This document shows positions 9,271 to 28,834 of a stretch of 64,000 nt of DNA, in pieces (the first letter of the stretch is position 1; each line of letters opens with the position of its first letter). This DNA comes from Prunus persica (taxonomy: Eukaryota; Streptophyta; Magnoliopsida; Rosales; Rosaceae). The DNA lies in NCBI RefSeq assembly GCF_000346465.2, contig NC_034009.1, positions 11,536,747-11,600,746 on the forward strand, in the 5' to 3' direction. Below the pieces are notes generated by a model, which was not told the origin of the DNA, ran no database searches, and saw nothing but the letters and a program-made list of their open reading frames with translations. The position numbers and the translations under genes are program-made.

Positions 9271-9489
9271 TTGTTTTGACGAAACAAACAAGTCATCATC
9301 TGCATTTTGTTCTATAGAAGCAGAGTTACTGTCTGATGGCTAAACAACAAAAAGATTAGGTTTCTGTGTTTGCTGATCATGAGGAACAGAAGCTGAGTTG
9401 CTTTGGCATTCCGACAACCTTTTCACACGAGTAATTGAAGAACTCCTAGCAGGAACTTGTGTCGAAACATTGTTGACACATTGGGAACC

Positions 9490-9734
9490 CTAAGCCTCTG
9501 AAACATAACCCAACTGCTCACCGCACATAGTGCATGCAGTCTCAATTGTCGGAATCAATTTAAGCTGAAAAGGAGAAATCTTGTTGAGCAAAGGAGATGG
9601 TAACAATAACCATGAGCCAGATTTAAGAAGATAGATGGATATATGAGCTACGAAAACTTACTTCATAACGATAACTCCCTTCAGCAAGCAGCTTGTCAGA
9701 TTTCTTACCATCTTGAATGTTACTGCCTCGAACC
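9490..9734 (-). pseudogene. MsrB-derived exons of F-box unit A
   Basis: Two blocks, 9734-9662 and 9564-9490, look like MsrB exons 2 and 3. The first starts after AAG, in the phase of the F-box donor at 10599/10598, and runs 24 open codons with KSDKLLAEGSYRYE. It ends at a GTAAGT donor. The second starts after TTTTCAG and runs 24 codons with CTMCGEQLGYVSEA before TAG, keeping one CxxC pair. The catalytic-cysteine part is absent. The upstream F-box part is itself frameshifted, so the unit is probably dead. Confidence 0.55.
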
Positions 9735-10598
9735 CTTCATCTCAAACAGTAATCATGCCAAAAATCAGTTGACATAGTTAACCAGTGTCTCAGTACCCTC
9801 CCCAGAGGTTCAACTTCAAACATCCAGGTATTGTACCAATTCATAGTTAATGACATGCTTAAACAAACTCAAAATCTATCAGAGTGACAGCTCTGAGGGG
9901 GTCACTCCTAAGTCCATAGGCCATTGATCATAGTGTTAGCCACTGACGAGAAAATTTCCTGAATAACTATATACCTTGTAGCAGTAAATAGTAGGCGTTG
10001 AACTTGTTAGGTCTTGTGTAAGTTCATATGAAGGAGCTTTAACACGGTTCGATGATGACATGCTAACCTAAACGAAACAAAACGGCTCTGTAATGCTCTG
10101 CTTCCTCAAAATTCTTCAAGATGTGTTTTGAGTATCAATATAGCATGAAGGAGATAATTCAATAAACGAAACAAGAAGGCTCTATAACGCTAAGCATTGC
10201 AGCAAGACACACTCTGTACTTACAAGCTGAACTCATATTTAACCAAAGAAAGTCTGATACCACTTGATTTTGGTGAGAAAGAAAGCCAACCGTAACGCAA
10301 CCATAAAAAACTGAACAAGCCTACATATTTTACAAAATTCGGGCTTAAGTTTAGGCTCTATGACACACAACACCACCACATCCTCAAACCTGATGAGAAG
10401 TTGAGATTGTACACCATTATTTTCCATGCTTTCTTATGCAATATTAAGGGAGGTAAGCAGAACTCAGGATGGAAAATATTTCTGCATGAATGCAATACAG
10501 AACAACAACTTACACAAATAAAAGGAAAAGCTAAACTAATAACATAGAAGTGCAACCATATATTCTGCATGTATATCTTTGAAGTATAATTTTGATAC

Positions 10599-11787
10599 CT
10601 TTTCACCTCCTCTTCTTTAAAAACTTTGGAGAGTGGAACAAAGCATGCACTGTAAGAAGTTGCATCAAACGCTGACCCAGTCGGAGTAATTTGAGATTTC
10701 CCGAGACTCTTTACCTCTTGATTATCAAAAACCACATCCCGACCGTTGAACGCCATGAGGATTTGCCCATCAATCAAAATCATAACTGGTTCAGTGTAGT
10801 GACAGGACACATCTTTCATGTACAAGTCTTCAATAACAAGAATCTTGTTCCAAGATTCTTGGACACCGTAATCTTTCATAACCCACATGTCAAGTTCCCT
10901 GGAAGCACAACCACCAAACACACATAAAACAAGACAACCTCCTAAAACTCCCAACTTTAAAAGATCATGAAATTCTCTCTTTACTCTTCCATAGTTGCTA
11001 GTCAAGGGTAGTGATCGAAATTGCTCGGTTTCAAAGCTGAAAGAATGTATGCATTCAGCACTTTCAACAGCAAGGGAGACCCAATGAAGAGCTTCATGGA
11101 AAAGGGCACTGAAGGGAAACTTAAGTAAGTCACTAGGAGCATTTCCAATGCTTCTCCAAACTCCCGTTCCTATGGTGTATACAGTATATCTCAACCTCAA
11201 GGTAGTCGATTGAGCGACACTCTGGGTCGACCATCGGATAAAAGGATTGCAACACCTTGTACTGATTCGTCTCGACGCTAAAACCAAATCCATCAAGAGG
11301 GGCCCTGCACCTGCCCTTGTAATTAGGTGGGATGGTGATGAACTCACCCAAAATTGGATTGCACACATACAAAGGGTCATCTCTACTTTCTCCAGACAGA
11401 CAAAGTAAACCATTACAAGAGTTTACCATACGAAATTCTAAAATGGGTAGGCTGGTTTTGGGAGCAAATGCAAACCTCATTTTCTTGAGCCTCATATCAG
11501 AACCAGAAAATTCTACTATCTGGGTGAATTTTATTTTCCTTGAATTTTTTACGAAGGAATGGCTCTTGATCAAGATGCCAAGAGGTAACCTTGAGGCTTG
11601 GAGATGAGCAAATTGAGGGTCAGAAATAATATAAAGCCAATCTTTGCAAACGCGCCTGCAGTTGAAGAGGGTTTTTATGGACAGCCTTGAGAGAATTTCC
11701 ATGACCATAGCCAGAGGAAAGCTGTTGGAATTTGGAGGGATCTAGATTTGCTACCATCTTCCTCTGTTTCATTTTGCGGGTTTCCAT
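10599..11787 (-). pseudogene. F-box/FBA gene A, broken by two frameshifts
   Basis: The sequence follows the other four F-box genes from METRKMKQRK (ATG at 11787) through an F-box (MEILSRLSIKTLFNC) and an FBA-type beta-propeller region. Two lesions are visible against the paralogues. One is an extra T in the CAGCTTTCC stretch near 11720. The other is a 7-bp insertion (TGTATAC) after GAGATATAC near 11180, which truncates the ORF that starts at 11708. The second half (10606-11170) is still open in another frame. It runs past the place where the paralogues have TAC TAA, because this copy has TAT CAA. The family normally supplies the substrate-binding subunit of SCF ubiquitin ligases. Confidence 0.75.
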
Positions 11788-12149
11788 AGTTTCTCCTCAG
11801 CCTATAGACGGGGACTGGGATGGGGTTTAAATTTCCGGTGGAAGGAATACCGGCGAGCTCAAAAAAGCGTTTGTGTTTCTTGCTGCTTTTATAGGAAGGA
11901 TGGAACCGCAGTTGCTAATGGAAGAGGTTTTGGCGGGAAACTTTTGCCTTAATTCATTCGAAAATATTATTTTTATAATTAAAGTAAATTTGTTAAAATA
12001 ACAAATTTTTATTAATTTTGTACATGTGGCTCCTACTTGGCATGCCACATGAACGAGTTTAACAGTAAGATGCGAAAAGTGAATTTTGGGAACAAGGTTT
12101 TTTTTTTTTTTTTTGGGTTGCGAAAGTTAGGAAGGAAAATGAGTTTTTT

Positions 12150-12365
12150 TTTTTTTTTTTTCCAAACAATGAGATAATATTATTAAAGACGAATAGTAAG
12201 GTTTACATCACAAGCAAAAATATCAAAAATCCACTCAGGTCATAAATCACTCCAAGTATGAATTCCGCCAAATACAGACACAAAGGCCGCAATTTTATGC
12301 GCTGCATTGTTACAATGACGATGGGTATACAGGAAAACGCAATGCTGAAATTGCCCCACCAACTA
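12150..12365 (-). mobile_element. 3' end of a LINE (RNase H-like domain remnant)
   Basis: The minus strand translates as CNNAAHKIAAFVSVFGG followed by PEWIFDIFACDVN with one stop between. This resembles the C-terminal end of the RNase H-like domain of plant L1-type LINEs and related proteins. A T-rich run at about 12142-12160 on the plus strand is the A-rich tail expected downstream of such an end. The open frame is decayed. The family call is from recognition of the motif. Confidence 0.5.
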
Positions 12366-12781
12366 CTTTATGTCAAAAATAATGATTTCCACAGCAATTT
12401 CAATTTTCTCTCACACACCAAATGTTATAGAGATCCAAACATGAAATTACCGATCTTCAAATTAAGGCCATTTTTCACTCGGCTAAACCCCATTAACAAA
12501 TTTATGAAACAAGTTGAGTCAAAGTAACTTTTGGACGACATAGTGGGATTGAGACATCATTCGAGTTACACTAGACTAATTAAGTCTAAACTTAATGATG
12601 ATTTTAAGTAGATTGCTTTGAGCATTATTGAATTAGACAATCCGATAACAATATTATGGGAGCAATAATATTGAATAAGACAATCAAATAACATTGCTTT
12701 AGAGTGCTTTTAAAAGAATCCCTTCCCTCTAGAAAGATTGCCCAAGTGAAGTGCCCAAAACAAAAGTTGCACGTGATCTTA

Positions 12782-13644
12782 GGCCATCTTTAGTCATGGG
12801 CTATATCCCAAATATAACCCTAAAATAATGCAAAATCCATATCTAGTCATGAGCTAAACAAAATTTTGGTGAAAAATTTGGAGGGCCACATTTGGCCATT
12901 TAGCCCGGAGCCCTCCAACCGGGCCAAATGGGCCAAATGGGCCAAATGTAGCCCAGCTTTGGCCTAGGCCAAATTTGTGGTGGGGCCCATCCATGTGTTT
13001 TTCAACAATCAACATTGATATATATAGATTTTTAAAAGCCTTTTGAATGTTTCGTATTGTTTAAGAAAAAAGTATAAAAAATTGTTGACAATGACGTTGG
13101 AGGTCAGATCTACCCACTCCCTTTTTTTTATTTTTTTATTTATAAATAATAATAAATGTGGTCAACTTTTCAAATCTTTTCAAGTGTTGTTTAAAAACAA
13201 TTATAAAAAAAGTCTTGTTCATGAACATTGGAGCTCAAACATCGAAACCCATCCTTTTTTTTTTTTTTGTCTTCACATTTTTAAATGTTTCGTATTGTTT
13301 TAAAAAATTATAAAAAATTCTGTGCCATGGCCGTTGAAGGTCAAACCCTTGAAACCCTTCCAAATTTTTTATTTATTTTTAAATTGCCTTTGTTGGCTTT
13401 TTTTAATTAATTTTTTTTTTTATAAATAGTTGTTTAATTAAATTAAACAATATATGGTTGTGGAATGTACAAGTGTTGTACCATAATTTTTCTCAAAATA
13501 ATAAAATATGAAGGACCCTAAAATATAGCCATGCATGGCTGGAGATGGAAAATTTAGCTCTGCACTATTCTTTAAACAATTAATTTTTGGGGGGGCTAAA
13601 TTTTTAGCCCTGAACTATATTTAGCCCTACAGCTGGAGATGGCC
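12782..13644. mobile_element. Non-autonomous PIF/Harbinger-like element, about 863 bp
   Basis: The left end reads GGCCATCTTTAGTCATGGGC. The right end, reverse complemented, reads GGCCATCTCCAGCTGTAGGG. The flanks are TTA on the left and TCA on the right, compatible with the 3-bp TTA/TAA target preference of PIF/Harbinger elements with one change. No transposase ORF is seen. Inside, GGGCCAAAT is repeated three times near 12928-12955. The right end abuts the broken twin-Cx9C copy. Confidence 0.6.
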
Positions 13645-13654
13645 TCAGGTCTTT

Positions 13655-13850
13655 TCCCATCTGGGTTCGGCTGGAACACGAAATCTTGTCAAATGTGCAT
13701 GCATTTTGTTTTCTCACAATATCTTCTTTGGTTCCTCTTCCTTTCTTGTGTGATTTTAATCACTGTTTTCAAATTCAGGTTCTTTGAGGCCTTTAAGACA
13801 TGCAACGAGAGGAGGAAGAATGACATAGTAAACTGCGATCATATGAAAGA
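13655..13850 (+). pseudogene. Truncated duplicate of the twin-Cx9C gene
   Basis: Exon-2-like (GGAACACGAAATCTTGTCAA) and exon-3-like (GCATGCAACGAGAGG region, 13798-13815) sequence and the 3' flank (GATCATATGAAAGATGAGCTT region) match the intact gene at 8440-8710. Exon 1 is missing, cut off at the Harbinger-like element. The exon-2 donor GTGGGTATGC has become ATGTGCATGC, so it could not splice. This is a clear processed-by-duplication relic, not a retrocopy, because intron sequence is kept. Confidence 0.7.
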
Positions 13851-14199
13851 TGAGCTTAAAACGATTGCCACCATCTGCTCTCTGGTTTTTATTTTATGTT
13901 CTATTTATAATTTGACTAAATCCAAAAAAGAAATTAGCCTTCAACAATTTCCTGTAACCATAAGGATAATATCAAAGGACCCAAAAAAGAGATTGTAACT
14001 AGGCACTTTAGACATTCATAAAAAGGTCACAAAACAAATCTTACTAGCATTATGTTGTATAGAAGCAGAGTTACTGTCTGATGGCGAAGTAACAAAAAGA
14101 AGCCATTTTCTACCTTTGCTGATAGTTGCTTTGGGGATTAGAACAACCTTGAAACTAAAAAGCAATTCAAGAATTCTCAGCATGAACTTGTGTTTCGTA

Positions 14200-14489
14200 A
14201 CATTATCGACACATTCAGAACCCCTTACGTTTGAAAACATAACCCAAGTCCCTACCACATATAGCACATTCATTCCCTATCCTCAAAGTGAAATCCACCT
14301 GAAATTGTTCAGCAAAAAGGAGACAGCAACAACCATTTGGTATTCAAGAAAACAGAAGATGGTCACAAGAAAACAGGCTGGCCATAACCTCAGTTAAGTT
14401 TTGTGTTCTTGTAGGGTGGCATCCCAGAACCAACACAATCAGAACTCCCCACAGCACGCAGCTTGTCAGATTTATTCCCGGCTCTTACC
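14200..14489 (-). pseudogene. MsrB-derived exons of F-box unit B
   Basis: The acceptor TATGCAG precedes a block starting at 14489 that joins the F-box B donor (14857/14856) in phase. It then reads 32 codons, including NKSDKLRAVGSSDCVGSGMP, before TGA at 14392-14390. An exon-3-like block follows near 14200-14305 (GTGGATTTCACTTTGAGG onward) with a decayed reading frame. Only the region around the first zinc-site pair survives (DCVGSG, one Cys lost), and the catalytic part is gone. Confidence 0.55.
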
Positions 14490-14849
14490 CTGCATATCAT
14501 ACGGTACACATGCCAAATGAGTTTCCATAATCAGTAACCAATGCCTCACCCCCCTGCTCAAAGGGTTAAACATCATTGCACAGTTAAACAAATGTTTGGA
14601 CAAACTAAAAAATCTATCATAATGATCGTAGTCTTAGCAAGTGACAAGCAAATTTTCTGAATAACTAGAGCCTTGTATTGGTAAGTAATAGGCATTGAAT
14701 TGAACTTGTTAGATCTTGTGAGCTTACACATATGCAGGATCCTTATAACAATATTGCCTACAAAATATCCACTTCCAGAAATAAAAAGAAAGATAGAAGT
14801 TGTAGCAGAGAAATATATGTTTGTGCATGTATATCTTTGAAGTAGAATT

Positions 14850-16073
14850 TTAGTACCTCTTCACCTCCTCTCCTCTTGAAACATCGTAGAGTGAAACAAA
14901 GGATGGACTGTAAGCAATTGCATTGAATGAGAATGATGACCGAGTCCCAGTAAGTCTGATTTCCCTGAAACTCTTTTTTTCTTTATTATAACAAACAACA
15001 TCCCAATTGTTGTGCACCATCAGGATTTCCCCATTACTCAAAAACATGATAGGTTCATGCAAACTCAAGAAAGGTGTCCTTCGAACCAAGTTTTCGACGA
15101 TGACAAGAAATTTAGTCCAAGACTCTTGGACACCATAATCCTTCATAACCCACATGCCAATTTTGCTAGATTCATCGTCAAACACAGATAAAAGGAGGCA
15201 ACCTCCTAACACTCCCAACTTAAAAGACTCTGAAGATTGCTTCTTTCTTTGTCCAAAGCAGCAAGGTGAGGGTAGTCGTTGGAATTGCTCTGTTCCATAA
15301 TTGAAAGTGTTTATAAGCATAGACATATTACCACCATAGGAAACCCAATGAAGAGCTCCTCGCAGATAAGAATTGAATGGTAACTCAGGGAAGTCCATAG
15401 GAGCATTTCCAATGCTTCTCCAAAGCCCTGTACCAATGGTGTATATCTCAGCCTCAGCCTTGCAGAAATTGTCAGATAAGCTCGTTTGCAACACCTTGTA
15501 CTCATTCGTCCTGACGCTAAAACCAAACCCAACAAAACTGCACCAGCCCCTACCTTTCTGGGTAGGTGGAATGATGATGAATTCACCCAAAATTGGATTG
15601 CAAACATAACATGGGTCATATTTATGAGGTCCAGACAAACAAACTAAACCATTGCATGAGTTTACCAAACCGAATTCGGAAATGGGTACATTGTCGGTAA
15701 AGTTCATTGTGTCTACCCACGAATCAGATTCAGCACATTCCTCTACATGGGTCAACTCAGGTTTCCATGATTTCAGATTATGGGGATACTTCTTGATCAA
15801 GATGCCAATTCTTGATCTTGATAGGTGGGGATGAGTAAATTGAGGGTCAGAAATTAGAGAAAGCCACTCTTTGCAAACGCACCTGCAGTTGAGGAGGGTT
15901 TTCATGGAGAGCATTGAGAGAATCTCCATGGCTATAGCCGGTGGGAGTTGCTGGAAGTTGGTGCAGGGACAAGGACCTCTGGGTTGCTGCCATTTTTCTC
16001 CTAATCGCTCTCTGTCTTTGCTGCAAGTCGCTGCTCTATTTGCTGCTCTTTTGCTTGGATTCATATTATTCAT
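14850..16073 (-). CDS. F-box protein with FBA domain, unit B
   Basis: A single open frame of 407 residues starts MNNMNPSKRAANRAA. A basic tail of about 40 residues precedes the F-box (FQQLPPAIAMEILSMLSMKT, about 41-85). It is followed by an FBA-type propeller region to the C terminus (NSCNGLVCLSG, EIYTIGTGLWRSIGNAP, GALHWVSYGG, MWVMKDYGVQESWTK). This resembles At3g07870/CPR1-type F-box proteins, which bind SKP1 and recruit targets to SCF ligases; the target is unknown. The apparent end GEEVKRY-stop coincides with a donor-like AG/GTACTAAAA at 14857/14856. An alternative model splices to the MsrB-like exon at 14489 and gives about 438 residues. Confidence 0.8.
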   Translation of the reverse strand: MNNMNPSKRAANRAATCSKDRERLGEKWQQPRGPCPCTNFQQLPPAIAMEILSMLSMKTLLNCRCVCKEWLSLISDPQFTHPHLSRSRIGILIKKYPHNLKSWKPELTHVEECAESDSWVDTMNFTDNVPISEFGLVNSCNGLVCLSGPHKYDPCYVCNPILGEFIIIPPTQKGRGWCSFVGFGFSVRTNEYKVLQTSLSDNFCKAEAEIYTIGTGLWRSIGNAPMDFPELPFNSYLRGALHWVSYGGNMSMLINTFNYGTEQFQRLPSPCCFGQRKKQSSESFKLGVLGGCLLLSVFDDESSKIGMWVMKDYGVQESWTKFLVIVENLVRRTPFLSLHEPIMFLSNGEILMVHNNWDVVCYNKEKKSFREIRLTGTRSSFSFNAIAYSPSFVSLYDVSRGEEVKRY

Positions 16074-17080
16074 TTTGGGGTTTCTTTGTTTTCTTTTTTC
16101 TTGGAGTGTCAGGAGGAGACTTATCAGCAGTCAAAATCGTTGGAGAAATACCAGAAGAGCATTGAAATGGGCTTTTGGCGGCAAGTGCATACTTTACGTT
16201 TTTGGGTTGTCCCACTTGTCACTCTTGGAGTGGGCTAGAGGGGCACCTCTCAATGGACCAACCGAATTTTAATTCGAATCTGGTCTGGTCCAGCTAATAC
16301 AAGACAATATTAAATGTAATTACAAGAGCATCCACATAATGTATTTAAAGATTTTAGTTAAGGATCGGTTAAAGAGTTCTAATCTCAGTTATCTACTAGA
16401 TATGGTAGTAGGTTAAATAAGATAAGAGTAGAAGTCGCAGATCAATCCTTAACATAAAGTTATTAGATATGTTAGAGGGTTAATTAATTTTTTTAAAAAT
16501 AATATACCGTACATGCAATTCAATAACTAAATTATAAGTCATTAACCAATTCTTAACATAAAGTTCTTAATGGTGCAAAACCTCTTGCGCCAGAGAACTT
16601 CTCCAATAAGGATTTTTGTTAATGATTAGTTAAGGAGTTCTAATCTTAGCCCATCCATTAGATTTGCTAGTGTGTTAAATAATTTTTTTAATATATACCA
16701 TGCATGCAATCCATTGAATAATATTAGGAATTTTTAACCAAACTTAAACTTAGAAGTTTTGGATTAGTCAAGGAGTTCTAATCTCAGTCATTCATTAGAT
16801 ATGTTAGTAGATTAAATAATTTTTTAAAATATACATTATATGCAATCCAATCAATAATGACATAGTTTAATAAACAACTTCAATAGGAATCTGAATTTTG
16901 ACTCTCCTCAATCCAACTCTTCCTCAATTCAATTCATTCTCATCCGATTACGGAGAAGTAAAACAAACATGCCATAAAAGAGAAGAAATCGGTGAGATGG
17001 GCGGGTGCTGAATAAGGTTGTAAATAGGCACTTGGACATTGATACAAAGTTTTACAAAAGTTTCAACCAGGATTTTGTCT
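16074..17080. other. Intergenic DNA between F-box units B and C
   Basis: No gene is seen. The first 250 bp are the promoter side of F-box B. The rest is dominated by degenerate repeats described separately. Confidence 0.6.
16345..16865. repeat. Degenerate tandem repeats, units of about 140-250 bp
   Basis: The phrase GGAGTTCTAATCTYAG, then ATTAGATWTGYTAGTRKRTT, then a T-rich run and TGCAATCCA recurs at about 16370, 16630 and 16770. The copies are imperfect and head to tail. Confidence 0.6.
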
Positions 17081-17329
17081 AGACAAGTCATCACTTGCAG
17101 ATTGATCTATAGGGGCAGAGTTACTATAATGGCTATACAACAAAATGCTGCCTTTTTCTGTCTATTCTGAAGAACAAAAGGAGAGCTACTTGGGTATTAC
17201 AAAAACCTATATACAAGCAATTGAGAAGCTCTCAATAGGATCCGGTGTCGTCAAAAGACTCGAACCATTGTGGCACATTGGGAACCTTAACCTCTTACAA
17301 CATAACCCAAGTGGCCACCGCATAGAGTG

Positions 17330-17602
17330 AATGCAGTCCTCATCCTCAGAGTTAAATCCAGCTGAAAACAAATGAAATTATTCAGCAACACACTAGCACA
17401 AGAGAACAGATGGATAATAAGAACTACGACAACTCACAGAGGATTTATGGCTCAAGGAAGACCCTCCTCAAAAACAGGGCATCCATAGCCTGAGTTAAGT
17501 TTTGTCGACTTGCGGGGTGGCATACCAGAGCCGGCACACTCATAACTCCCTTCCAAAAGCAGCTTTCCAGATTTCTTACCCGATTTCTTACTGCGTCGTA
17601 CC
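17330..17602 (-). pseudogene. MsrB-derived exons of F-box unit C
   Basis: The block starting at 17602 (after ATGAAG) is in phase with the F-box C donor at 18097/18096. It reads 49 codons, including SGKLLLEGSYECAGSGMPPR and KSTKLNSGYGCPVFEEGLP, before TGA at 17454-17452. The intact MsrB has [20 protein letters not shown] at this place, so most of exon 2 is kept; the position of the first zinc-site pair reads ECAGSG, so the second Cys has become Ser. An exon-3-like remnant starting near 17360 (AGFNSEDEDC) is out of reach after the stop. Confidence 0.6.
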
Positions 17603-18089
17603 CTTCATATCATACACAGTAAGCATGCCAAAATGAGTTGATCAGTGACCAATGTCTCACCACTTACTGAAGCATCCGTGTTATTATTCAAATTCCTAGT
17701 TAACAAAATTCTCGAACAAGCTCAACCTATCATGTTAACAAACCTGAGGGGTTCACTCCCTTGTGAACAGAAAATTATCATAGCATTGGCAAGTGACAAG
17801 TATTTTTTTAGTAACTATAGCCTTATTAATCATTCTATCAACAGATCTTAAGCATTGAACTTGTTACATGTGTATGAGCTATATGAATAATTCCAGACTT
17901 TCATATGCAATGTTAGGGAAAATTAGAAGAGCCTAGGAAACAAAAAGTTTGTGCAATTTTTAAAATGTAATACCTTGATTGCATTTTCGGACAAACATGA
18001 ACTTCCACAAATATAAAGCAAAAAATAAAAGTTGTGGCAGAGAAATGTAAGTAAATTAAAGCATGTATATCTTTGAAATATATAGGATT

Positions 18090-19310
18090 TTAGTACCTCT
18101 TCACCTCTTCTCCTTTTGAAACATTGTAGAGGGAAACAAAGGATGGACTGTAAGCAATTGCCTCAAATGGTGACCGAGTCCAAGTAATTCTTATTTCCCT
18201 GAAACTCTTTGTTTCTTGATTATAACAAACAACAGCACAATTATTGAACAACAGCAGGATTTCCCCATTCCTCAAAAACATAATTGGTTCATACACATGA
18301 CAGATTCGTTCCTCTGGACACTCATACAAGTTTCCGAAAACAAGAATTTTAGTCCAAGACTCTTGAACACCATACTCCTTCATAACCCACATGTCGAATT
18401 TGCTATAATCATCATCAAACACAGATAAACAGAGACGCCCACCTACCACTTCCAGTATATAACAATCTGAAAGTCGATTTCCCAGTAAGCTAGGCACAGG
18501 CAGTGGTCGAAATTGTTCTCTTTCGAAGTCGAAAGAATGTATAAAATCAGGAACTGTGCTACTATAGGATACCCAATGAAGAGCTCCATGCAGAAAAGGA
18601 TTGAAGGGTAACTGATCAATATCCCCAGGAGCATTTCCAACACTTCTCCACACTCCTGTACCAATGGTGTATATCTCAGCCTCAGTGCCATTGGTCATTT
18701 GCAACAACTTGTACTCATTGGTCCCATTGCTAAAACCAAGCCCAACAAAAAAGCACTTGTTTCTACTTAGATTGGTAGGAGGGATGCTGATGTGCTCACC
18801 CAAAATTGGATTGCACACAAAACATGGGTAATCTCTATTGGGTCCAGACAAACAGAGCAGACCATTACATGAGTTTATCAAACGAAATTCAGGCATGGCC
18901 CCAATAGGTAGGCTGTTTTGGGGATTAAACCTTATTTTCTCAAGCAGCAAATCAGAACCAGCACAATCTTCTATATGGGTAAAATCAAGTTTCCTTGATT
19001 TTCTTATAGGGGGGTAGGTCTTGATCAAGATGCCAACGGGTGATCTTGAAGAGTGGAGCTTAGTAAATTGAGGGTCAGAAATTATAGAAAGCCAGTCTTT
19101 GCACACGCACCTACAATTCAAGAGGGTCTTGATGGAGAGGCTTGAGAGGATTTCCAAGACCAAAGCCTGTGGAAGTTGTTGGAATTTGCTGCAAGGAGCT
19201 TTGGGTTGGCATTGTTCCCCTGATTGCTCTTTGTTTTTGCTGCTCATAGCTGCTCTGGTTGCCACTTTTTTTCTTGGATTCATAGGATTTCCTTTCGTTT
19301 CTCTTGCCAT
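18090..19310 (-). CDS. F-box protein with FBA domain, unit C
   Basis: One open frame of 406 residues starts MARETKGNPMNPRKKVATRA. It has a basic N-terminal tail, an F-box (FQQLPQALVLEILSSLSIKT, about 40-85) and the FBA-type region with NSCNGLLCLSGPNRD, YTIGTGVWRSVGNAPGD, GALHWVSYSS and MWVMKEYGVQESWTK. The likely role is the substrate receptor of an SCF ligase. It is intact and nearest in sequence to units B and E. The stop at 18090 lies just after a donor-like AG/GTACTAAAA at 18097/18096. If spliced to the MsrB block at 17602, the product would be about 454 residues. Confidence 0.82.
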   Translation of the reverse strand: MARETKGNPMNPRKKVATRAAMSSKNKEQSGEQCQPKAPCSKFQQLPQALVLEILSSLSIKTLLNCRCVCKDWLSIISDPQFTKLHSSRSPVGILIKTYPPIRKSRKLDFTHIEDCAGSDLLLEKIRFNPQNSLPIGAMPEFRLINSCNGLLCLSGPNRDYPCFVCNPILGEHISIPPTNLSRNKCFFVGLGFSNGTNEYKLLQMTNGTEAEIYTIGTGVWRSVGNAPGDIDQLPFNPFLHGALHWVSYSSTVPDFIHSFDFEREQFRPLPVPSLLGNRLSDCYILEVVGGRLCLSVFDDDYSKFDMWVMKEYGVQESWTKILVFGNLYECPEERICHVYEPIMFLRNGEILLLFNNCAVVCYNQETKSFREIRITWTRSPFEAIAYSPSFVSLYNVSKGEEVKRY

Positions 19311-19806
19311 TCTGTAGGTTTGGGAAAGTTCAAGAGCTAGCTGATGAGGGTGCCTTGAGAGAACTAGCTGATGCTTTCTTTTGAAAAATATTCAGAGCTA
19401 AAACGGCACGTATAAACTGGCATGTATTGGGCAAAGGACAAATGTCAAATGAAAATTAAGGAAGAATCATCTGTTACGTGTACAACACCCGTCTTTACTT
19501 TTCTGATTTCGGGTACTATCTTCTTAATTTATTTAAAGTCAATTTCGGTTCTGTATTTTACCACTTTTATCACTAACGTTTCTATAGTTTTAATTTGATA
19601 AATTTTATCCCTATAATTTCAATTTCAAGCAATTCAAGCACAATTCTCGATATTTCGATCCAATATTGTAGCCCGTCCCCAATTACTTCCACAGCCACCC
19701 CACAGCCCCTATTGTAAATTTTCTTATGCTTTTAAGTCTCAAAGTCACTTACCTTGGGTTCATGAGGAGGGATTTTGGGTAATGCATGGAATTAGGTTTG
19801 GAGTTT

Positions 19807-19908
<102 letters not shown>

Positions 19909-19980
19909 GTGATTGTGAAGGGAGGGGAGCATAATGTTGGGTTGACAGGTGAAAGAGTGAGGGTATAAGGTGGATGTGGG

Positions 19981-20562
19981 CATTGGCGGATCCAAAAATT
20001 TTTTAGCAGAGGTACAATATTGTCTAAGTATGAAAAATAGTTTTTTGGAATAATCATTTTCTCAAGATAATTTTTAGCGGCTTTTATTCCTTACACATCA
20101 AATAAGAAAACTTGATTTTATGGGATTTTAGTATGAAGTATATATTGACTTAATGAGCCATCATTTTTAGCCTAAATCGTATTTTACATTAAAACCGAAT
20201 TTTCATATTTTGATTTGGTGGGAAATTGATTTTTTAGTATTTTTATTTGAATCCAAATGGAGGGTACTTCCTTATTTACATTGTAAACTTAAGTAAATGG
20301 AGTAATACAAAAATAAATAAAAGTAAAAGAACAAAGACATTTACTTAAATGTTGAAAATGAAAATAAAGTAATCTGTACATCAATTGAGTAAAAGGGCAA
20401 TTTGAAACACCTACAATGGTTTTTCCGGCGTGAGGAGGTGCAGGAAAATAAAGTAATCTGTACATCAATTGAGTAAAGGGGCAATTTGAAACACCTACAA
20501 TGGTTTTTCCGGCGTTGGGAGGTGCAGCTGTACCTCCTTGTGCCTTACTAGGTCCGCCAGTG
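19981..20562. mobile_element. Non-autonomous hAT-like element, 582 bp
   Basis: The ends are imperfect inverted repeats: CATTGGCGGATCC on the left and, reverse complemented, CACTGGCGGACC on the right. An 8-bp flank repeat (GATGTGGG at 19973-19980, GATATGGG at 20563-20570) matches the 8-bp target duplication typical of hAT transposons, with one change. No transposase ORF is present. It contains an 84-bp tandem duplication. Confidence 0.65.
20361..20530. repeat. 84-bp tandem duplication inside the hAT-like element
   Basis: The stretch starting AAAATAAAGTAATCTGTACA at 20361 recurs at 20445 with few differences and ends GGAGGTGCAG in both copies. Confidence 0.9.
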
Positions 20563-20570
20563 GATATGGG

Positions 20571-21203
20571 GGTGGTTGGTCCCGAATGCTATTTTAGGGC
20601 TTGGAATGGTTTCTGATTTCTATGAAAAAGGTCGGTGATAGTTTCTGGAAAAAGAGAGAGATGAAGGATTAGGATAATGTATTATTTGATTGATAGATAT
20701 GTATGTGACTTGGGCCCACTTAATCTTGTCGGGTGGTTTAGTATAGGATAATGTATTATTTGCTTGACATGACATATACATTATTTCTATATTTATTTAA
20801 TGAATTAATTCTCAAAATACAGCTTGGATTAAAGCATGACCAACATTGTATGTTATATTGGGCTTGAAATATCTTTGAATTTCTTGTGACATTTTGGGCC
20901 TCAACATCACCAATACTATTTAAACCTTATTGTATTCTTAAAAGCCAATAATGTGTTGCCACATATATTTGTATTTAATTAATAAATTATTTTTAATTTT
21001 TAGTTCAATACGGGTTGTCACTATATAGGATTGTTACCCGTTCTTTTAACTAAAATTTTCGGTTTGAATTGGTATGGTAGAATTAAAATATAAAATAATA
21101 ATTTAACCAAATCAAATCAGCCGTTAATTCGATACAATTGATACACCACGAATTTTTCAGATAAGATGCCACCCCTACTTGTAGGTAAGTCGTTAACAAT
21201 ATG
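20571..21203. other. Intergenic AT-rich DNA
   Basis: No gene is seen between the two transposon remnants. The phrase GGATAATGTATTATTTG occurs twice (20672 and 20746). Confidence 0.5.
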
Positions 21204-21788
21204 AGGAATGCTAGCAACCTTCTCTTTTGGACATTCTCCCTTTTTTGCTTGACATGTGTCATTGTCCTTACACTTAAACCAATGTCATTAATATATTATA
21301 CAAGCTAACTTTTGCTTTCCAAGTTTACCCTTATTAAATATATTCAATTTATCCAAAACAATTTCACAACTTTCTTACCACCTTATTATTATTATTTTTA
21401 ATGTCAAATTTTTTATTTAAGAAAATGTCTACTTTTAAAAAAAAAGAAAAAAAAAGAAAGAGGAAATGTCCCTTTTTTTAAGGTCAAGTTTAGACTTATT
21501 TTTTTATTTAAAAAAAAAAAAGGACATTTCCTCTTTTTTTTTAAAAGCAAACATTTTCTTTTTTAAAAATAATTGATGTTAAAAAAATTTAATAAGATTG
21601 TAAGAAAGTTGTAAAATTTGTTTGGATAAATTGAATACATTTAATAAGGGTAAACTTGGAAAACAAAAGTTAGCTTGTATAATATATTAATGACATTGTT
21701 TTAAGTGTAAGGAGAATGACATATGTCAAGCAAAAAATGGAGAAGGTTCAAAAGAGAAAGTTAGAGAGAAGGTTACTAGTATTCTCCC
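21204..21788. mobile_element. Foldback (long inverted repeat) element, about 585 bp
   Basis: The left arm (about 21204-21475) and right arm (about 21510-21788) are reverse complements over most of their length. Matching segments include AATATATTATACAAGCTAAC against GTTAGCTTGTATAATATATT, and GGAAATGTCC against GGACATTTCC. The tips read GGAATGCTAGCAACCTTCTC and, reversed, GGAGAATACTAGTAACCTTC. No coding capacity is seen. A transcript would fold into a long hairpin. A Mutator-like foldback MITE is one possibility; no target duplication was found. Confidence 0.75.
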
Positions 21789-22339
21789 ACAAGTTAACCT
21801 CATTTTAAGTACCTAATCAAAAGATAAAGGTATTGAATTATCTTATCCGATTGATAGGTACATAAGTAAAAAAATTGTCAAATTGTAGTCAATGTGCACA
21901 CAAATAACTCACTTGCAAAACCATGAATACACCCAAATCAAACAACAACGAGAGACATGAAAATTTACTCCAACTAAAAAGAGCAACATCAATATACCGC
22001 AACCAACAATATTATACCAATTGTATGTATACTACCTTTTGCAATTATTAATAACAAACTTCTAAACACAAATATGGTATAAATGATAATACTTCCATAG
22101 CCAAAAGGACAAATGATATGCAACTTCAAAAAGGAAAATAAATGATAACCATTAGAAAATACTTGTACGATTGTAACTAGAAATTTAGACACTAATTAAA
22201 ATCAAAAGTTTTAACAAAGAGTTTCAATCACTTTGTTCTAGACAAGCCATCAAAGGCATTTTGGTCTATAGACGCAGAGTTTCCCCTAATGGCAAAGCCA
22301 AGTAACAAAAAGAAGCCTTCCTTTTTCCTCTTAAGAAAT

Positions 22340-22613
22340 CATGCAGTCCCAATCCTCCAATTCAAATCCGGCTGAAAATAAAAAAAGAAAATTAGAAAAT
22401 GGAGATGGTAGTAGCAACCACTAGATAGAATCAAGAGAACAGAAAATGAATGCATAACAACCAACAAACAGGCACAAGAAAATAGGCAGATATATAAGCT
22501 ATGAAAACTTACAGAGGAATTTTTGGCTTTAGGAAGAGCCTCTTCAAAAGCAGTACAATCATAACTCGATTCATCAAACAGGCAGCTTGTTATATCTCTT
22601 ACTGCTGCCAACC
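22340..22613 (-). pseudogene. MsrB-derived exons of F-box unit D
   Basis: The acceptor TATGCAG precedes a block starting at 22613 in phase with the F-box D donor (23050/23049). The frame reads VGSSKRYNKLPV and then TGA at 22576-22574, the shortest extension of the five units. The exon still ends at an intact TCCTCT/GTAAGT donor at 22513/22512, and an exon-3-like block begins after TTTTCAG at 22371 (PDLNWRIG in frame). This is the most decayed copy, lacking the zinc-site cysteines. Confidence 0.5.
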
Positions 22614-23042
22614 CTGCATAAAAAGTGGTAACAGATAAATGAAGCTAATTTTTATGCATGAAATCTGAGGAATTATTTTACGAAAAAAACTCTGTTACCA
22701 CTTGATTTTAGTGAAAAAGAAAACTCAAGGTTTATGCAACCCCAGAAAGTTTACCAAACCCGCATAGTTAACCAAAATTTCAATCTAAGTTTAGGGTCTG
22801 TGGCACTTCGCCGCGACCTTCAAGACTGATAAAGCATACAGATTGTATACCATAATTTCAAACTTCTATGCAGTATTAGAGAAGATTAGCAACTTCAGAC
22901 ACTTTTTACATGTCTGCGAAATGCAAAATATTGGTCACATTTGCTTTAAAGCATCAACTTGCAAAAATAAAAACGAAGAAGCAAAGTTGTGTCAGAGAAT
23001 TAATGTAACTAAGTTTATGCAAACAATTTTAGAAATATCATT

Positions 23043-24191
23043 TTAGTACCTCTTCACGTCCTCTGCCTTTGCAATATCATAGAGCGAAAGAAAGGATGGA
23101 CTGTAAGCAATTGGCTGAAATGACCACTTCTTAGTCGAAGGAATCTTTATTTTTCTGAAGCTCTTTTCTTCTTGATTATAACAAACTACACGCTCAAAGT
23201 TGTAGAACATCAGGATTTCCCCAGTGCTCAAAAACATAATTGGATTATACCTATCACAGATTCGTTCCGTCCAAAGGCCAAACAGGTTTTCAAAAGCAAG
23301 AATTTTAGTCCAAGACTCTTGCACACCATACTCCTTCATAACCCACATGTCCAGTTTGCTAGCATCATCCTCAAGCACACATAGATGGAGACAACCTCCT
23401 ATCACTTCCAATGTCAAACTATACGGAAATTGATTCTTTGCTAGCAAACTAGGTAGTGATAATGGCCGGAATTGTTCTCTTTCAAAGTCGAAAGATTGTA
23501 TAACCTTGGAACTTATACTTCTACCACCATAGGGAATCCAATGAACAGCTCCATGAAGAAAATTATTGAACGATAAGTTATTAAAATCCCCAGGAGGAGG
23601 AGGTCCAATGCTTCTCCATGCCCCTCCTGCGCCAATGGTGTAAATCTCAGCCTCAGTGTCCGGGTTGTTCAACTGAAACACCTTGTACACATTGGTCCTG
23701 ACGCTAAAACCAAGTCCCACAATAAGCCACTTGTCGTTTCTATTAGCAGGTGGAATGGTGATGTACTCGCCCAAAACAGGGTTGCACACATACAGGGGAA
23801 AGCCTTCATTAGCTCCAAAACAAAGCAGACCATTACATGAGTTTATCAAGCGAAATTCGGGCATGGCGTCGTCAACGGGAGGTAGGGTATTTCTGGGAGA
23901 AAACGTTATTTCCTCGAGCTGCAAATCTGAACCAGGAGCAGCACATGCTTCTGCTTGTAGATGGGTAAAATAAAGTTCCATTGGTTTTGTTAGAGGGGGA
24001 GGAAGGAAGATCTCGATCAAGATGCCAAAGGGTGATCTTGAAGCGTGGAGATGAGTAAACTGAGGGTCAGAGATTATAGAAAGCCACGCTTTGCACACGC
24101 ACCTGCAGTTGAAAAGGGTCTTGACAGAGAGCCTTGAGAGGATGTCCATGGTTATACCCAGTGGAAGTTGCAGGAACCGTTGGGTTGCCAT
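23043..24191 (-). CDS. F-box protein with FBA domain, unit D
   Basis: I place the start at the ATG at 24191-24189 (MATQRFLQLPLG), because the upstream in-frame sequence to 24284 has no ATG. This gives 382 residues, with a shorter N-terminal tail than units B, C and E. The F-box is MDILSRLSVKTLFNCRCVCK, near the N terminus, followed by the FBA-type region (NSCNGLLCFGANEG, EIYTIGAGGAWRSIG, GAVHWIPYGG, MWVMKEYGVQESWTK). The product is a probable SCF substrate receptor. The stop follows a donor-like AG/GTACTAAAA at 23050/23049. Confidence 0.8.
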   Translation of the reverse strand: MATQRFLQLPLGITMDILSRLSVKTLFNCRCVCKAWLSIISDPQFTHLHASRSPFGILIEIFLPPPLTKPMELYFTHLQAEACAAPGSDLQLEEITFSPRNTLPPVDDAMPEFRLINSCNGLLCFGANEGFPLYVCNPVLGEYITIPPANRNDKWLIVGLGFSVRTNVYKVFQLNNPDTEAEIYTIGAGGAWRSIGPPPPGDFNNLSFNNFLHGAVHWIPYGGRSISSKVIQSFDFEREQFRPLSLPSLLAKNQFPYSLTLEVIGGCLHLCVLEDDASKLDMWVMKEYGVQESWTKILAFENLFGLWTERICDRYNPIMFLSTGEILMFYNFERVVCYNQEEKSFRKIKIPSTKKWSFQPIAYSPSFLSLYDIAKAEDVKRY

Positions 24192-24469
24192 TCTACTGCT
24201 TGCTCTTTCTTGCTGATCGCTCTTCTTCTCCTTGAATTCAATCGTATAGGAATAATTTTGCCAGTCTGGCCAGAAAAGAAGCACAGCTTTTGGTACAGAG
24301 ATGCAAATAGAAAAGGTTTGTTGTTAAATTTGAGTTCAAATTAAGAGAAGAATTAGGTTAATATAGAGATGGGTTGGCTTGGGATGATCCAGGAAAGATT
24401 GGATTGGATTTGAAGTTGCAAACTTGAAATTGCTAAAAATTGCAGAACTTGGACATCTGATGAAATGTG

Positions 24470-24760
24470 TGTTGAGAATGGGAACAAGAAAGCAAATAAC
24501 TCAAACGCAAGAACTGGATTGAATGACTTATTATTGAACAGCAACCTTTGGTTATTATATAGCCTTACATGAACTAACAAACAGCTGAAATACAGCCCAC
24601 GATTCACACTAACAGAAACGTGGTAACGTGCATAAGGAAAGAGTCAAAAACAGTAAACAAGTCTCCCTACATAGTAGGAACTTATTTGAAACAGAAAACA
24701 AACCTAAATATCTGAGAATCCTATACTAATAAGGAATCCCAAACCCGTCAACGTGAATGG
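24470..24760 (-). mobile_element. Putative LTR remnant (copia-type character)
   Basis: On the minus strand the stretch ends in CCCATTCTCAACA and carries a TATA-like GGCTATATAATAACC in the middle, with A/T-rich flanks. This is the usual build of a plant LTR. No matching second LTR or pol sequence is seen nearby, so it would be a solo or truncated LTR. The call rests on general appearance. Confidence 0.35.
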
Positions 24761-26130
24761 GTTAGGGTTTTGCAGACAACATATGTGAGTCAAAGGAGAA
24801 CAAGAGTTTTTGACGAGACTGCGGCGGCGAACGAGAGATAGGAGGGGGTGCTCGCTGAGAGGACTTCACTGGATTTTTCAAAGAGAAAATTGCCCTACAC
24901 GGTGTAGGACAAGGAATGAATGCGGACCCAAAAACAATTGTGGGAGACAAAAAGGCTTTGGTGGAATGAGTGCCCCTTGGCTTGGCAATATTCCTAAGAT
25001 GCACGCAAGGTGCTCGACGAAATGCAACAGCGAAGCCTGGGCTTCGCTCACAGGCGGGCGCCTAATTTTTTAGACCAAAACGACGTCGCTTTGGAACAGG
25101 CCATTTCAAATTTTTTTAATAACCTGGCATCAAAACGACATCATTTTGAGCCAGGCTTTAAAAAAAAAATTTTAAACCCGACGTTGTTTTGGCATCTCCC
25201 CTTCTTCTAACCGACGTTATATTTTTGTTGTTGTTAATTGATATTGTTATATTTTTGTTGTTGATAAATATTTTTTTAATTGATATTGTCATATTTTTCT
25301 TCTTTTCTTTCTTTCTTTTTTATAATTAAGTGAGTCGAGGTGGAAAGCCAGAAAATATGGGTGTGTAGCTCGAGGTGAAAAGCCAGAAAATATGAGTGCT
25401 GAGAACAAGGGATGAGATCCCAACATGCTTTTGTTATTCAAGGACGTTGTCTGATGCTTTTCTTACCATTTAAACCAGGACGTTCTTCAATCTGAAAACA
25501 AAAGCAAACTAGAGAGAAAACATAAGCAGAAATCAATCAAAAATGTATTCCCTTCGATTCCTGAAACTTCAACAGATTTGAATTTATCCTTTGATCCTTC
25601 TTCAAACCAAAAAACAACACATGAAAATGTTGTCTTTCCACACTCCAATTTTCACACCGATTTTACTTCTATGCAAGCTGCAAATATGCACAATTAAATT
25701 CCAGCAACTATGAACATGCTTACACCATATGCGAACTTGATAATGGCAAGGAGGTTTGACAAGACTGCAGCAGAAGAGACCAATTTTTTTAATGCTCACC
25801 GTGCTAGTTCGATAGCAAATGTAGGATTGCGTCTGCTAGCAAAGAAACCAAGAGTGTGCTTCATTGACTGCTCTGGTCGCATCCTTGAAGGCTGAAGTTG
25901 CTGAATTGCATGGGCAACTCAAGCAATCAAACTAACATATAGAAGCACTAAAAAAGAAAAATCGTTTCCTTGTTTAATAATGCTCAAAAAGTAAACTTAC
26001 AAAATTGTTTTGATTGGACATTATTTTTACAATTTGAACTGTATATATGACCCTCTTTAAAAGTAGGCCAGCAACAACTTGTTTAACAAAAGTTGTGTCA
26101 CATTTATATATCACCCTAAAGGTCTGCTCC
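24761..26130. other. Repeat-derived intergenic DNA between units D and E
   Basis: No gene is supported. The segment 25075-25190 has three variants of AAAACGACGTCGTTTTG-like palindromes, often seen in plant repeats. At 25333-25400, a phrase around AAAGCCAGAAAATATG occurs twice. Short ORFs here have no recognisable motif. Confidence 0.5.
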
Positions 26131-26136
26131 TGCGGG

Positions 26137-26164
26137 CCCCCCCCCCCCCCCCCCCCAAAAAAAA
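26137..26164. repeat. Homopolymer C20 followed by A8
   Basis: Twenty consecutive C bases are followed by eight A bases. It directly precedes an F-box gene fragment, so it may mark a join or an assembly problem. Confidence 0.9.
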
Positions 26165-26285
26165 GGTCTTAATCAAGATCCCAATGGGTGATCTTGCAGA
26201 GTTGGGGTCAGCAAATTGAGGGTCAGAAATTATAGAAAGCCAGGCCTTGCAAACGCACTTGCAGCTAAAGAGAGTCTTTTATGGG
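26164..26285 (-). pseudogene. Fragment of a sixth F-box gene
   Basis: About 120 bp match the F-box region of unit E in antisense. The minus strand encodes a decayed CKAWLSIISDPQFA-like segment, then SPIGILIK. It starts and ends abruptly and has no start codon or FBA region. It is evidence for at least one more unit in the array in the past. Confidence 0.7.
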
Positions 26286-26485
26286 GAGAAATTATTGTAT
26301 GGTATTGTAATTCGGCATTGCAATTTGCATACAGCTAAAGACGGTGGTATATTCACAGACAGCCATCGCATTTGATATTAAACAAAAGATTAACACTAGT
26401 CAAGATTATAGGTTAGCTTTAACACTAGTAAAATCATGAGAAAACTACAGGACAGAAATAAGCCATAAAACCCCTTCCGCCAACA

Positions 26486-26520
26486 AAATTAAATTAAATT
26501 AAATTAAATTAAATTAAAAA
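26486..26520. repeat. (AAATT)n microsatellite
   Basis: About six pentanucleotide AAATT units run in tandem, passing into an A run. Confidence 0.9.
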
Positions 26521-26631
26521 AAAACTTATAAGTATATAACTAGGCACGTCGACATTCCCAAAAGGTTTTAACCCAAAAAAAGTTACATCTTGCATTTTGG
26601 TCTATGGAAGCGGAGCTATCCCGAAGAATTC

Positions 26632-27019
26632 TCAGGAGGAACCTGCGTTGGAGCATCGTTGACACAATAGGAACCCCTTACCCCTGAAAACATAGCCCAA
26701 GTTCTCACCGCATCGAGCACATGGGAATCCCATTGCGGTAAAATCCGGCTGAAAAGAGATTGTGTAGCAAAGAGACACAGCAACAACCATCAGATGGATT
26801 CAATAAAACAAAAATTGATTACAATAAAATAGATAGATACATGAACTACGACAACTCACCGTCGCAGAGGAATTCATGGAGTTAGGAAGACCTCCTTCAA
26901 AGGCAGGCCAGGCATAGCCTGAGTTAAGTTTTGTGGACTTGTGGTGTGGCATCCCAGAGCCAGCATAATCAAAACTCCCTTCAGCAGACAACTTGTCACA
27001 ATTCTTAGAGCCTTGCACC
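26632..27019 (-). pseudogene. MsrB-derived exons of F-box unit E (open in frame)
   Basis: Block 27019-26860 follows a TATGCAG acceptor, is in phase with the F-box E donor (27606/27605) and is open for 53 codons, including KNCDKLSAEGSFDYAGSGMP and KSTKLNSGYAWPAFEGGLP. It ends at ACG/GTGAGT. Block 26748-26632 follows CTTTTCAG, starts in phase 0 and is open for 38 codons with CARCGENLGYVFRGKG before TGA. The second zinc-site CxxC pair is kept. The sequence matching the catalytic-cysteine segment is present but in another frame, so the reductase site is not encoded. This is the best candidate for a live F-box-MsrB fusion. I label it a pseudogene only with respect to MsrB activity. Confidence 0.6.
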
Positions 27020-27598
27020 CTGCATATCATATATTGAGCATGCCAAAATGATTTGATATACTCATTGGCCAATGTCACAGCCTTCTTTCAGAATATCCAT
27101 ATATTGAACACATTTATAGAGTGATAATAATTGTTTACAGGTAGCATCCTAACCATTGACAATATCTTTTTATTTTTCAATCCCTAAAGATTTTCAAAGA
27201 AGTGTTTTGAGTATTACTTTAGAATCCAGGAGACAATCCAACAAACAAAATTCAAAGGCTCAAAGCAGACAATATGTCACCAATTGATTTTTGTGGAAAA
27301 TAAACTCATCTAATTTAACCCCAAAAAAAAAATTTGAACAAACCACATAATTCCGAAAAAGGATCTTGCATACACCAGTATTCTGATCAGTCATATAGAT
27401 TGGATATCGTATCAAAAATTTCATACGCAATTTCATGGGAGATTGGCAGAATTTAAGATACCATAGATTTCCGTATTTGAAACATGCAATACATAATTTC
27501 CCTACATTGACATCAACTTCCACAAATAGAGAGCAAAACAAGAAGTTGTAACAGAGAAATAGAACTAAATTATGCATGTATGTTGTTGAAGAATAATT

Positions 27599-28834
27599 TC
27601 AGTACCTTTTCACCTCCTCTGCCTTTGAAATATCATAGAGTGAAACAAAGCATGGGCTGTAACCAATTGCATGAAACTCAGATCGAGTCCGAGTAATTCT
27701 AGTTTCCCTGAAACTCATCCTTTTCTGATTATAGCAAACAACAACCCAATCATTGTAGGACATTACGATTTCCCCATTGCTCAAAAACAGCATCGGTTCA
27801 TACAAATCACAGCTAAGTTCTCTTGGATACAAGTTTTCAATAACAAAAGTTTTAGCCCAAGACTCTTGGACACCATAATCCTTCATAACCCACATGACAA
27901 ATTTGCTAGAATCATCCCCAAACACACACAAAACGAGGCAACCTTCCCACACTCCCAACTTCAAACAGTCTGAAAATTGCTTCTGTAGTGGTCCAAAGTA
28001 GCTAGGTGGGGGCAGTGCCTGAAATTGTTCTGTTTCAAAGTTGAAAGAATTTATAAGCTCAGGAACATCCCTAAAACAGGAAATCCAATGAAGAGCTCCA
28101 TGAAGATAAGCATTGAAGGGTAACTGAGGACCAAGGCTCCCAGAAGCCTTTCCAATGCTTCTCCAAAATCCTGTACCAATGGTGTATATCTCTGCCTCAT
28201 AGTTGTAACTTGTGACCGGTTCACTCGACTGAAGAAAAGATTGCAACACCTTATACTCACCGGTTCCGACGCTAAAACCAAGTCCAACACAATTGAAAGA
28301 TGGCCTACCCTTACCAGAGCGTTCAATGGTGATGAACTCACCCAAAACTGGATTGCACACATACAAAAGGCCACCTCTTTCGGGTCCAGACAAACAAATT
28401 AAACCATTGCACGAGTTCATTAGATTAAATTCAGAAATGGGTAGGCTAGTTTTTGGGGTAAACCTCATTTTCTCGAGCCGCCAGCGAGAATCAGCAGATT
28501 CCTCTATCTGGGCAAAGTCAAGTCTCCTAGTTATGCTTTTAGGGGGAAAGGTCTTGATCAATATGCCAATGGGTGATCTTGAAATGCAGAGATGGGCAAA
28601 TTGAGGGTCAGAGATTAGAGAAAGCCAGGCTTTGCAAACGCACCTGCAGTTGAAGAGGGTGTTGATGGTGAGCCTTGAGAGAATGTCCATGACCAAAGCC
28701 CGCTGAAGTTGTAGAATTTTGCAAGGACCATTGGGTTGCCATTGTTCTTGCTGTTTGCTGCTGATTGGTGGTGTTTGCGCTACTCTCTTCTTTGAGGTCA
28801 TAGGGTTTTTCCCTTTCTTTTCTCTCGGCATCAT
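27599..28834 (-). CDS. F-box protein with FBA domain, unit E
   Basis: One open frame of 411 residues starts MMPREKKGKNPMTSKKRVA. The F-box is at about 45-88 (ILQLQRALVMDILSRLTINT), followed by the FBA-type region (NSCNGLICLSGPERG, EIYTIGTGFWRSIGKASG, GALHWISCFRD, MWVMKDYGVQESWAK). It is the unit next to the intact MsrB gene. The ORF stop at 27601-27599 (VKRY-TGA) lies just past a donor-like AG/GTACTGAAA at 27606/27605. Splicing there to the blocks at 27019-26860 and 26748-26632 would give about 501 residues with an MsrB-like tail. The likely role is SCF substrate recognition; the target is unknown. Confidence 0.82.
   Translation of the reverse strand: MMPREKKGKNPMTSKKRVAQTPPISSKQQEQWQPNGPCKILQLQRALVMDILSRLTINTLFNCRCVCKAWLSLISDPQFAHLCISRSPIGILIKTFPPKSITRRLDFAQIEESADSRWRLEKMRFTPKTSLPISEFNLMNSCNGLICLSGPERGGLLYVCNPVLGEFITIERSGKGRPSFNCVGLGFSVGTGEYKVLQSFLQSSEPVTSYNYEAEIYTIGTGFWRSIGKASGSLGPQLPFNAYLHGALHWISCFRDVPELINSFNFETEQFQALPPPSYFGPLQKQFSDCLKLGVWEGCLVLCVFGDDSSKFVMWVMKDYGVQESWAKTFVIENLYPRELSCDLYEPMLFLSNGEIVMSYNDWVVVCYNQKRMSFRETRITRTRSEFHAIGYSPCFVSLYDISKAEEVKRY

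Follow-up and report, generated by a model that had tools for sequence, protein, structure and literature searches.

Do the F-box genes of a tandem cluster in peach (Prunus persica) end at their first stop codon, or are they spliced into downstream blocks derived from methionine sulfoxide reductase B (MsrB)? The question is raised by a 64-kb stretch of contig NC_034009.1 (the window; all coordinates below are positions in it), in which five F-box frames, all on the minus strand and designated units A (at 10.6k) to E (at 27.6k), are each followed by an MsrB-like block. The original prediction, made from the letters alone, held that each frame can leave its F-box part at a donor site just before the stop and enter the MsrB-like block in the same phase. 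Our analysis makes it very likely that this F-box–MsrB chimera is real. It is also likely, with somewhat less confidence, that F-box genes resembling FBX92 have been extended by exons 2 and 3 of an MsrB gene, spliced in phase, to give a non-enzymatic tail, and the fusion is probably older than the split between fabids and malvids.

Junctions and reading frames

The elements of the five units are the following.

27606..28834, minus strand: unit E exon 1, F-box and FBA (beta-propeller); open frame and donor, ending EEVK-AG/GTACTG; Pfam F-box 6.3e-08, FBA_1 3.6e-08
26860..27019, minus strand: unit E exon 2, derived from MsrB exon 2; entered in phase 2, with GTGAGT directly after it
26632..26748, minus strand: unit E exon 3, derived from MsrB exon 3; 20-nt frameshifting deletion, C-x2-C-x15-C-x2-C, ending NAGSS and stop; relatives apricot P0001 and Malus P0002
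23050..24284, minus strand: unit D exon 1, F-box/FBA; listed start GTG at 24284, ATG at 24191 likelier
22574..22613, minus strand: unit D tail remnant, with a stop after 12 codons
18097..19310, minus strand: unit C exon 1, F-box/FBA; orthologues apricot P0007 and Malus P0010
17452..17602, minus strand: unit C exon 2 tail, 49 codons, ending EEGLP and stop; P0007 ends EEGLP, P0010 EEDLP
14857..16073, minus strand: unit B exon 1, F-box; orthologue almond P0011
14390..14489, minus strand: unit B exon 2 tail, 32 codons, ending NTKLN and stop; almond P0011 ends alike
10599..11708, minus strand: unit A F-box pseudogene, frame broken by a 7-nt insertion near 11188
9440..9734, minus strand: unit A MsrB-like exon-2 and exon-3 blocks, exon 3 from 9564

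A direct check of the sequence places all five donor/acceptor pairs at the predicted bases and in phase 2. The last bases of exon 1 (27606, 23050, 18097, 14857 and 10599) are followed in 5/5 cases by the donor AG/GTA (GTACTG, three times GTACTA, and GTATCA), and the first bases of exon 2 (27019, 22613, 17602, 14489 and 9734) are preceded by ATGCAG in three units and by ATGAAG in two. The predicted lengths of the joined frames were recovered as well: past the split Arg codon a stop is reached after 49 codons in C, 32 in B and 12 in D, and, as read by eye, the frame runs for 53 codons up to GTGAGT in E and for 24 up to GTAAGT in A. Units A and E stay open through the exon-3 block, to ...VSEA and ...CSNAGSS, respectively (partly by eye). 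Without splicing, units B, C, D and E terminate in RY and a stop. The five units are not five intact genes, as the F-box frame of A is broken and D retains only its 12 tail codons. Pfam matches above cut-off could be identified for the F-box in units B, C, D and E, for FBA_1 in C, D and E, and for the b-prop_At3g26010-like domain in B and E.

Relationship of the tails to MsrB

The SelR profile (PF01641) scores above its cut-off of 24.9 bits for the unit E tail (exons 2 and 3; 25.7 bits) and for the tail of apricot P0001 (34.6 bits). Over the tails of ten relatives, a Malus tail (21.7 bits) and two Malvales tails (12–13 bits, same stretch of the profile) stay below it, and 6/10 give no SelR row. 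A sequence search of the PDB with the apricot tail puts MsrB structures on top (6qa0, 1.2e-06). Sets of tails were also compared as profiles with two peach MsrBs; since profile E-values are pairwise, 100 shuffles served as control. Scores against MsrB, with the shuffle maximum in brackets, were 85.8 (21.6) for Malvales, 89.1 (18.1) for four Rosaceae exon-3 tails, 55.4 (14.0) for nine short tails (eight Rosaceae, one Quillaja) and 38.9 (16.6) for legumes and Quillaja. None of these scores was reached by any of the 100 shuffles, and the Malvales alignment begins at residue 2 of both profiles. Between the tail sets themselves the scores were 31.3 (21.6) for fab–mal, 30.8 (13.4) for ros2–mal and 28.7 (15.4) for fab–ros; ros2–fab was not used because both sets contain P0005. 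Protein searches with the tail only returned P0001 itself for P0001 residues 412–506, and 14 rows for residues 340–476 of cacao P0012, 13 of them from Malvales genera and one from Malus. A DNA search with the unit E tail gave four matches, all within the cluster; with this method the lack of a match is no proof of rarity.

A parent-type gene lies in the window:

29827..30955, minus strand: intact MsrB gene; exons 30955-30861, 30253-30097 and 29985-29827, intron phases 2 and 0; SelR 2.4e-44

Its distance from unit E, which follows downstream in the same orientation, is about 1 kb, and its exon 2 has the same starting point as the MsrB-like exon 2 of the units. Directly ahead of the HCVN codons, units E, A and B have a gap of 20 bases in common; C has the gap plus one further base, and D lacks that stretch. 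The deletion is thus older than the tandem copies, as it is shared among them. Identity values did not single out a parent copy: the unit exons are 60–72% identical to the MsrB in the window and to the C8 copy, with overlapping ranges.

Relatives and probable age of the fusion

A protein search with unit E gave 899 matches, and the relatives described here were taken from the best 120 of them. The original prediction had proposed looking for F-box, FBA and SelR in one chain, and such a protein exists in apricot: P0001, of 506 residues, is 97% identical to unit E and is the only row among these 120 with a precomputed SelR match. At the protein level, annotated sequences from Rosaceae, Quillaja, legumes and Malvales (Malvaceae and dipterocarps) have this junction, with an MsrB-like tail after it. 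As judged by reading the C-termini, junction and exon-2-like stretch occur together in Malus, Rosa, Rubus, Argentina, Fragaria x ananassa, Quillaja, Senna, Neltuma and Acacia, and in the Malvales genera Theobroma, Reevesia, Diplodiscus, Corchorus, Hibiscus, Durio, Rubroshorea and Shorea. The junction residue in the relatives is Arg (Ser in P0015), followed by V, I, M, T or L. The tails of P0030, P0032 and P0034 from Malus and Pyrus have diverged past easy recognition, and in six rows from Camellia, Actinidia, Vaccinium and Liquidambar no MsrB-like tail was seen on reading, which was not a survey.

In a tree of the F-box part with 48 rows (P0006, P0067 and P0114 left out), Rosaceae (100/100), Malvales (100/100) and legumes with Quillaja (100/99) form separate groups. 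Within the first, unit E groups with P0001 and Malus P0002 (100/100), unit C with P0007 and Malus P0010 (98/96), and unit B with almond P0011 (100/100). The ends of the tails match these groups: EEGLP or EEDLP in the unit C type, NTKLN in unit B and almond, and continuation through exon 3 in the unit E type. A tail label based on length (more than 20 residues) was dropped for counting changes on the tree, as it takes in tails that are not MsrB-like, namely Populus P0079 and P0093, Liquidambar P0043 and Camellia P0064. The same junction in several rosid orders, together with tail profiles that match MsrB, points to a fusion before the fabid/malvid split.

In one relative, P0020, an open frame of 475 residues spans the junction; it is found on three contigs from the source 'lgn', none longer than 2065 bases, whereas P0117, P0023 and P0028 from the same source end at the donor position. 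This difference suggests spliced contigs in the first case and genomic contigs in the others, from what we infer of the nature of that source.

Three further observations concern the structure of the tails. In P0001 and P0002, the annotated exon 3 has five more codons (TISFQ) at its 5' end than the peach exon 3 defined here by a CAG acceptor; in peach, no AG directly precedes the TISFQ stretch. A duplication of exon 2 may be visible in the legume tails of P0025 and P0026, which seemingly hold two exon-2-like copies (VQGSKEYVKSSAEG... and VQKKFAKSSAAQG... for P0025). Finally, the tail DDKSSSEGTYNC of Populus P0085 resembles MsrB exon 2 and would carry the fusion to Malpighiales; P0085 was excluded from all counts.

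Proposed origin and gene product

We propose that exons 2 and 3 of an MsrB gene joined an FBX92/At3g07870-like F-box gene before Rosales, Fabales and Malvales parted, with splicing from a donor that lies shortly ahead of the F-box stop to the acceptor of MsrB exon 2, both in phase 2. The fused gene would then have been copied in tandem; its tail has been kept longest in E and C, and in A, B and D it is truncated or disrupted. The spliced form would be the main product in peach, and unspliced transcripts would give a tailless form ending in KRY. The F-box and propeller presumably still form a substrate receptor of the SCF ubiquitin ligase. The AlphaFold model of P0001 is mostly confident over both, and the nearest PDB entries are the kelch propellers of Keap1 and KLHL20 (query TM 0.35). 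The tail may act as a non-enzymatic accessory piece, which in unit E could be a small zinc knuckle for partner binding, dimerisation or stability.

Several observations weigh against this proposal. The donors lack G at +5, and 2/5 acceptors are AAG. Some relatives have tailless ends (Fragaria P0006 and P0008, Rubus P0013 and P0039), and most relatives are gene-model predictions, which may share the habits of the predictors. The match between the mal and ros tail sets taken alone (22.4) barely exceeds its shuffles (19.8). Among the proteins of four Rosaceae relatives, identity in the exon-2 part (0.38–0.63) is lower than in the body (0.55–0.79) for 6/6 pairs, and the exon-3 part (0.49–0.87) falls below the body in 5/6. 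Tail dN/dS is 0.55 for E–C, 0.94 for E–B and 0.54 for C–B, over 35–42 codons and with sites too few to decide alone; for the F-box parts of B, C, D and E (A was omitted) it is 0.53–0.69. Between peach and apricot, the unit C tail has 4/50 differences and the body 5/404 (p 0.011). The legume tails are without CxxC pairs. Structure predictions give the P0001 tail a pLDDT of 26–29 (residues 421–470), 50–56 around the cysteines (471–500) and 37 at the end, and the tail of cacao P0012 one of 26–36.

A zinc knuckle or a plain tail

Within the proposed fusion, the tail might be plain: a largely disordered C-terminus that neither binds zinc nor has another fixed function, an alternative that the original prediction had also allowed for. 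The low pLDDT values speak for it, as AlphaFold gives no confident fold, and so do the missing cysteine pairs of the legumes, the short tails of B, C and D and the fast evolution of the exon-2 part. AlphaFold itself neither shows nor excludes a zinc knuckle, because the alignments are shallow and zinc is outside the model. The cysteines of the longer tails argue in the other direction. The identity of the zinc and catalytic cysteines of MsrB was taken partly from PMC3680461. In Malvales, all four zinc cysteines are invariant in 9/9 complete tails (the truncated Gossypium P0123 was excluded), in which 13 of the 77 filled columns are invariant and a K-x2-L-x-L motif near the C-terminus is likewise kept throughout. 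The Rosaceae exon-3 tails have lost the first CxxC of MsrB, retained the second and gained another from the new frame that the deletion created; the resulting C-x2-C-x15-C-x2-C is found in 5/5 cases (P0001, P0002, P0015, P0051 and peach unit E), and the tails of P0040 and P0096 have the last cysteine pair only. On this evidence the plain tail is a serious alternative, if a somewhat improbable one, and a zinc-binding function can be put forward tentatively, a knuckle being the most promising of the specific roles.

A more elaborate interpretation, which we regard as unlikely, is that the receptor gained the zinc module of MsrB before the rosid orders parted, discarded the enzyme and kept a four-cysteine site in two ways, Malvales holding the original MsrB cysteines and Rosaceae having rebuilt the lost pair from the frameshifted segment of the catalytic site. 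The tail would then be a working metal- or redox-responsive switch, with the tailless form produced by intron retention.

Spliced genes or pseudogene debris

A second alternative is that the MsrB copies are decayed pseudogene debris, that the F-box proteins end in KRY, and that the tails of the relatives are artefacts of gene predictors. Stops or truncations in A, B and D and the weak donors agree with this view, and P0039, P0013, P0106 and P0117 end at or near KRY. The chance argument of the original prediction gives no help here. The five F-box blocks are tandem copies that are 65–76% identical, and in most pairs the homology runs for about 100 bases beyond the stop and resumes over the MsrB-like blocks. 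Since the units are tandem paralogues with inherited sites, the five phase matches are not independent, and the improbability claimed for finding them five times falls away.

What speaks against neutrality is the fate of the tails after duplication. Units E and C share 42 aligned codons that are open in both; the two differ here by an insertion of 12 bases and a gap of 7, which by its position lies beyond the stop of C. In contrast, the first 150 bases of their intron show six indels, none a multiple of three, with 46 differences in 149 compared bases, a ratio of indels to substitutions of about 0.13. In neutral simulations (3000 runs per ratio, with 80% of indels assumed to be frame-shifting), the 42 codons stayed open in both units in 23%, 0.3% and 0.0% of runs at ratios of 0, 0.1 and 0.2, respectively. 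Joint openness under neutrality is therefore unlikely at a realistic indel rate (0.3%), but it reaches 23% without indels. Exon-2 identity among E, C and B (0.74–0.76) is slightly above intron identity (0.68–0.71). Between peach and apricot, the differences in tail and body do not differ significantly for unit E (6/92 versus 13/409, p 0.14), nor do those counted for unit B (0/33 versus 7/405). Further evidence against debris comes from the annotation of the junction at the same place in three orders, from the invariant cysteines of Malvales and from Rosaceae exon-3 residues that are conserved nearly like the body, which together leave this explanation quite improbable.

It is very improbable that the tail retains methionine sulfoxide reductase activity or, as the original prediction had suggested, senses oxidised Met on substrates, since despite its MsrB ancestry the HCVN segment with the catalytic Cys is out of frame in the units through the 20-nt deletion, no counterpart of this Cys was found in the nine complete Malvales tails nor the catalytic segment in any tail read, and MsrB exon 1 lies outside the chimera. 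The predicted redox-enzyme-derived zinc segment agrees with the MsrB homology and with the cysteine pattern, but the catalytic Cys is gone.

Comparison with known systems

The units resemble FBX92/At3g07870-like proteins in their F-box and FBA/beta-propeller, and several relatives are so named in their source annotation; the Arabidopsis protein itself does not occur among the best 120 of the 899 matches. AT3G07870 (FBX92) is tabled under the cell-cycle machinery in leaf growth in PMC7178401, where the passages concerned do not mention an MsrB-derived tail. In PMC10148998, FBX92 comes up in the reference list only. With MsrB itself, the tails share the homology of exons 2 and 3, the start of exon 2, intron phases 2 and 0 and, in Malvales, the positions of the zinc CxxC pairs; they differ from it in being without exon 1 and the catalytic Cys, and in the Rosaceae exon-3 tails the first CxxC has been swapped for one born from the frameshift. 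Chimeric genes that arise by capture of exons from a neighbouring duplicate are a known kind, and the likeness extends to terminal exons joined in phase and to a neighbouring gene of parent type that has the same orientation. The units differ from these in that the fusion is apparently old (several orders) and was later copied in tandem with its host gene. No sign of a fusion between F-box and MsrB/SelR was found in the open-licence literature, subscription papers being outside the search; one paper that came up uses an F-box gene as a reference for quantitative PCR.

Plant F-box genes are very numerous, and their targets are mostly not known. A domain kept for long on one F-box subfamily would offer a direct handle on the regulation of that subfamily. 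The fusion would also be a clear example of an enzyme fragment that has taken on a structural role, and of a lineage that rebuilt the metal site out of frame.

Minor features of the cluster

Between units E and D lies an orphan 5' F-box fragment of about 125 bases (26163-26288, minus strand), which is 80–83% identical to the starts of the five units and is followed by a run of G. A partial second copy of the exon-3 and downstream block of unit A is present at 8883-9150 (minus strand), outside the range of the original prediction, with 64 columns at 80% and 183 at 69% identity. Outside the units, a 74-base repeat pair (8643-8716 and 13787-13860, minus strand; 82% identity) perhaps represents a mobile element.

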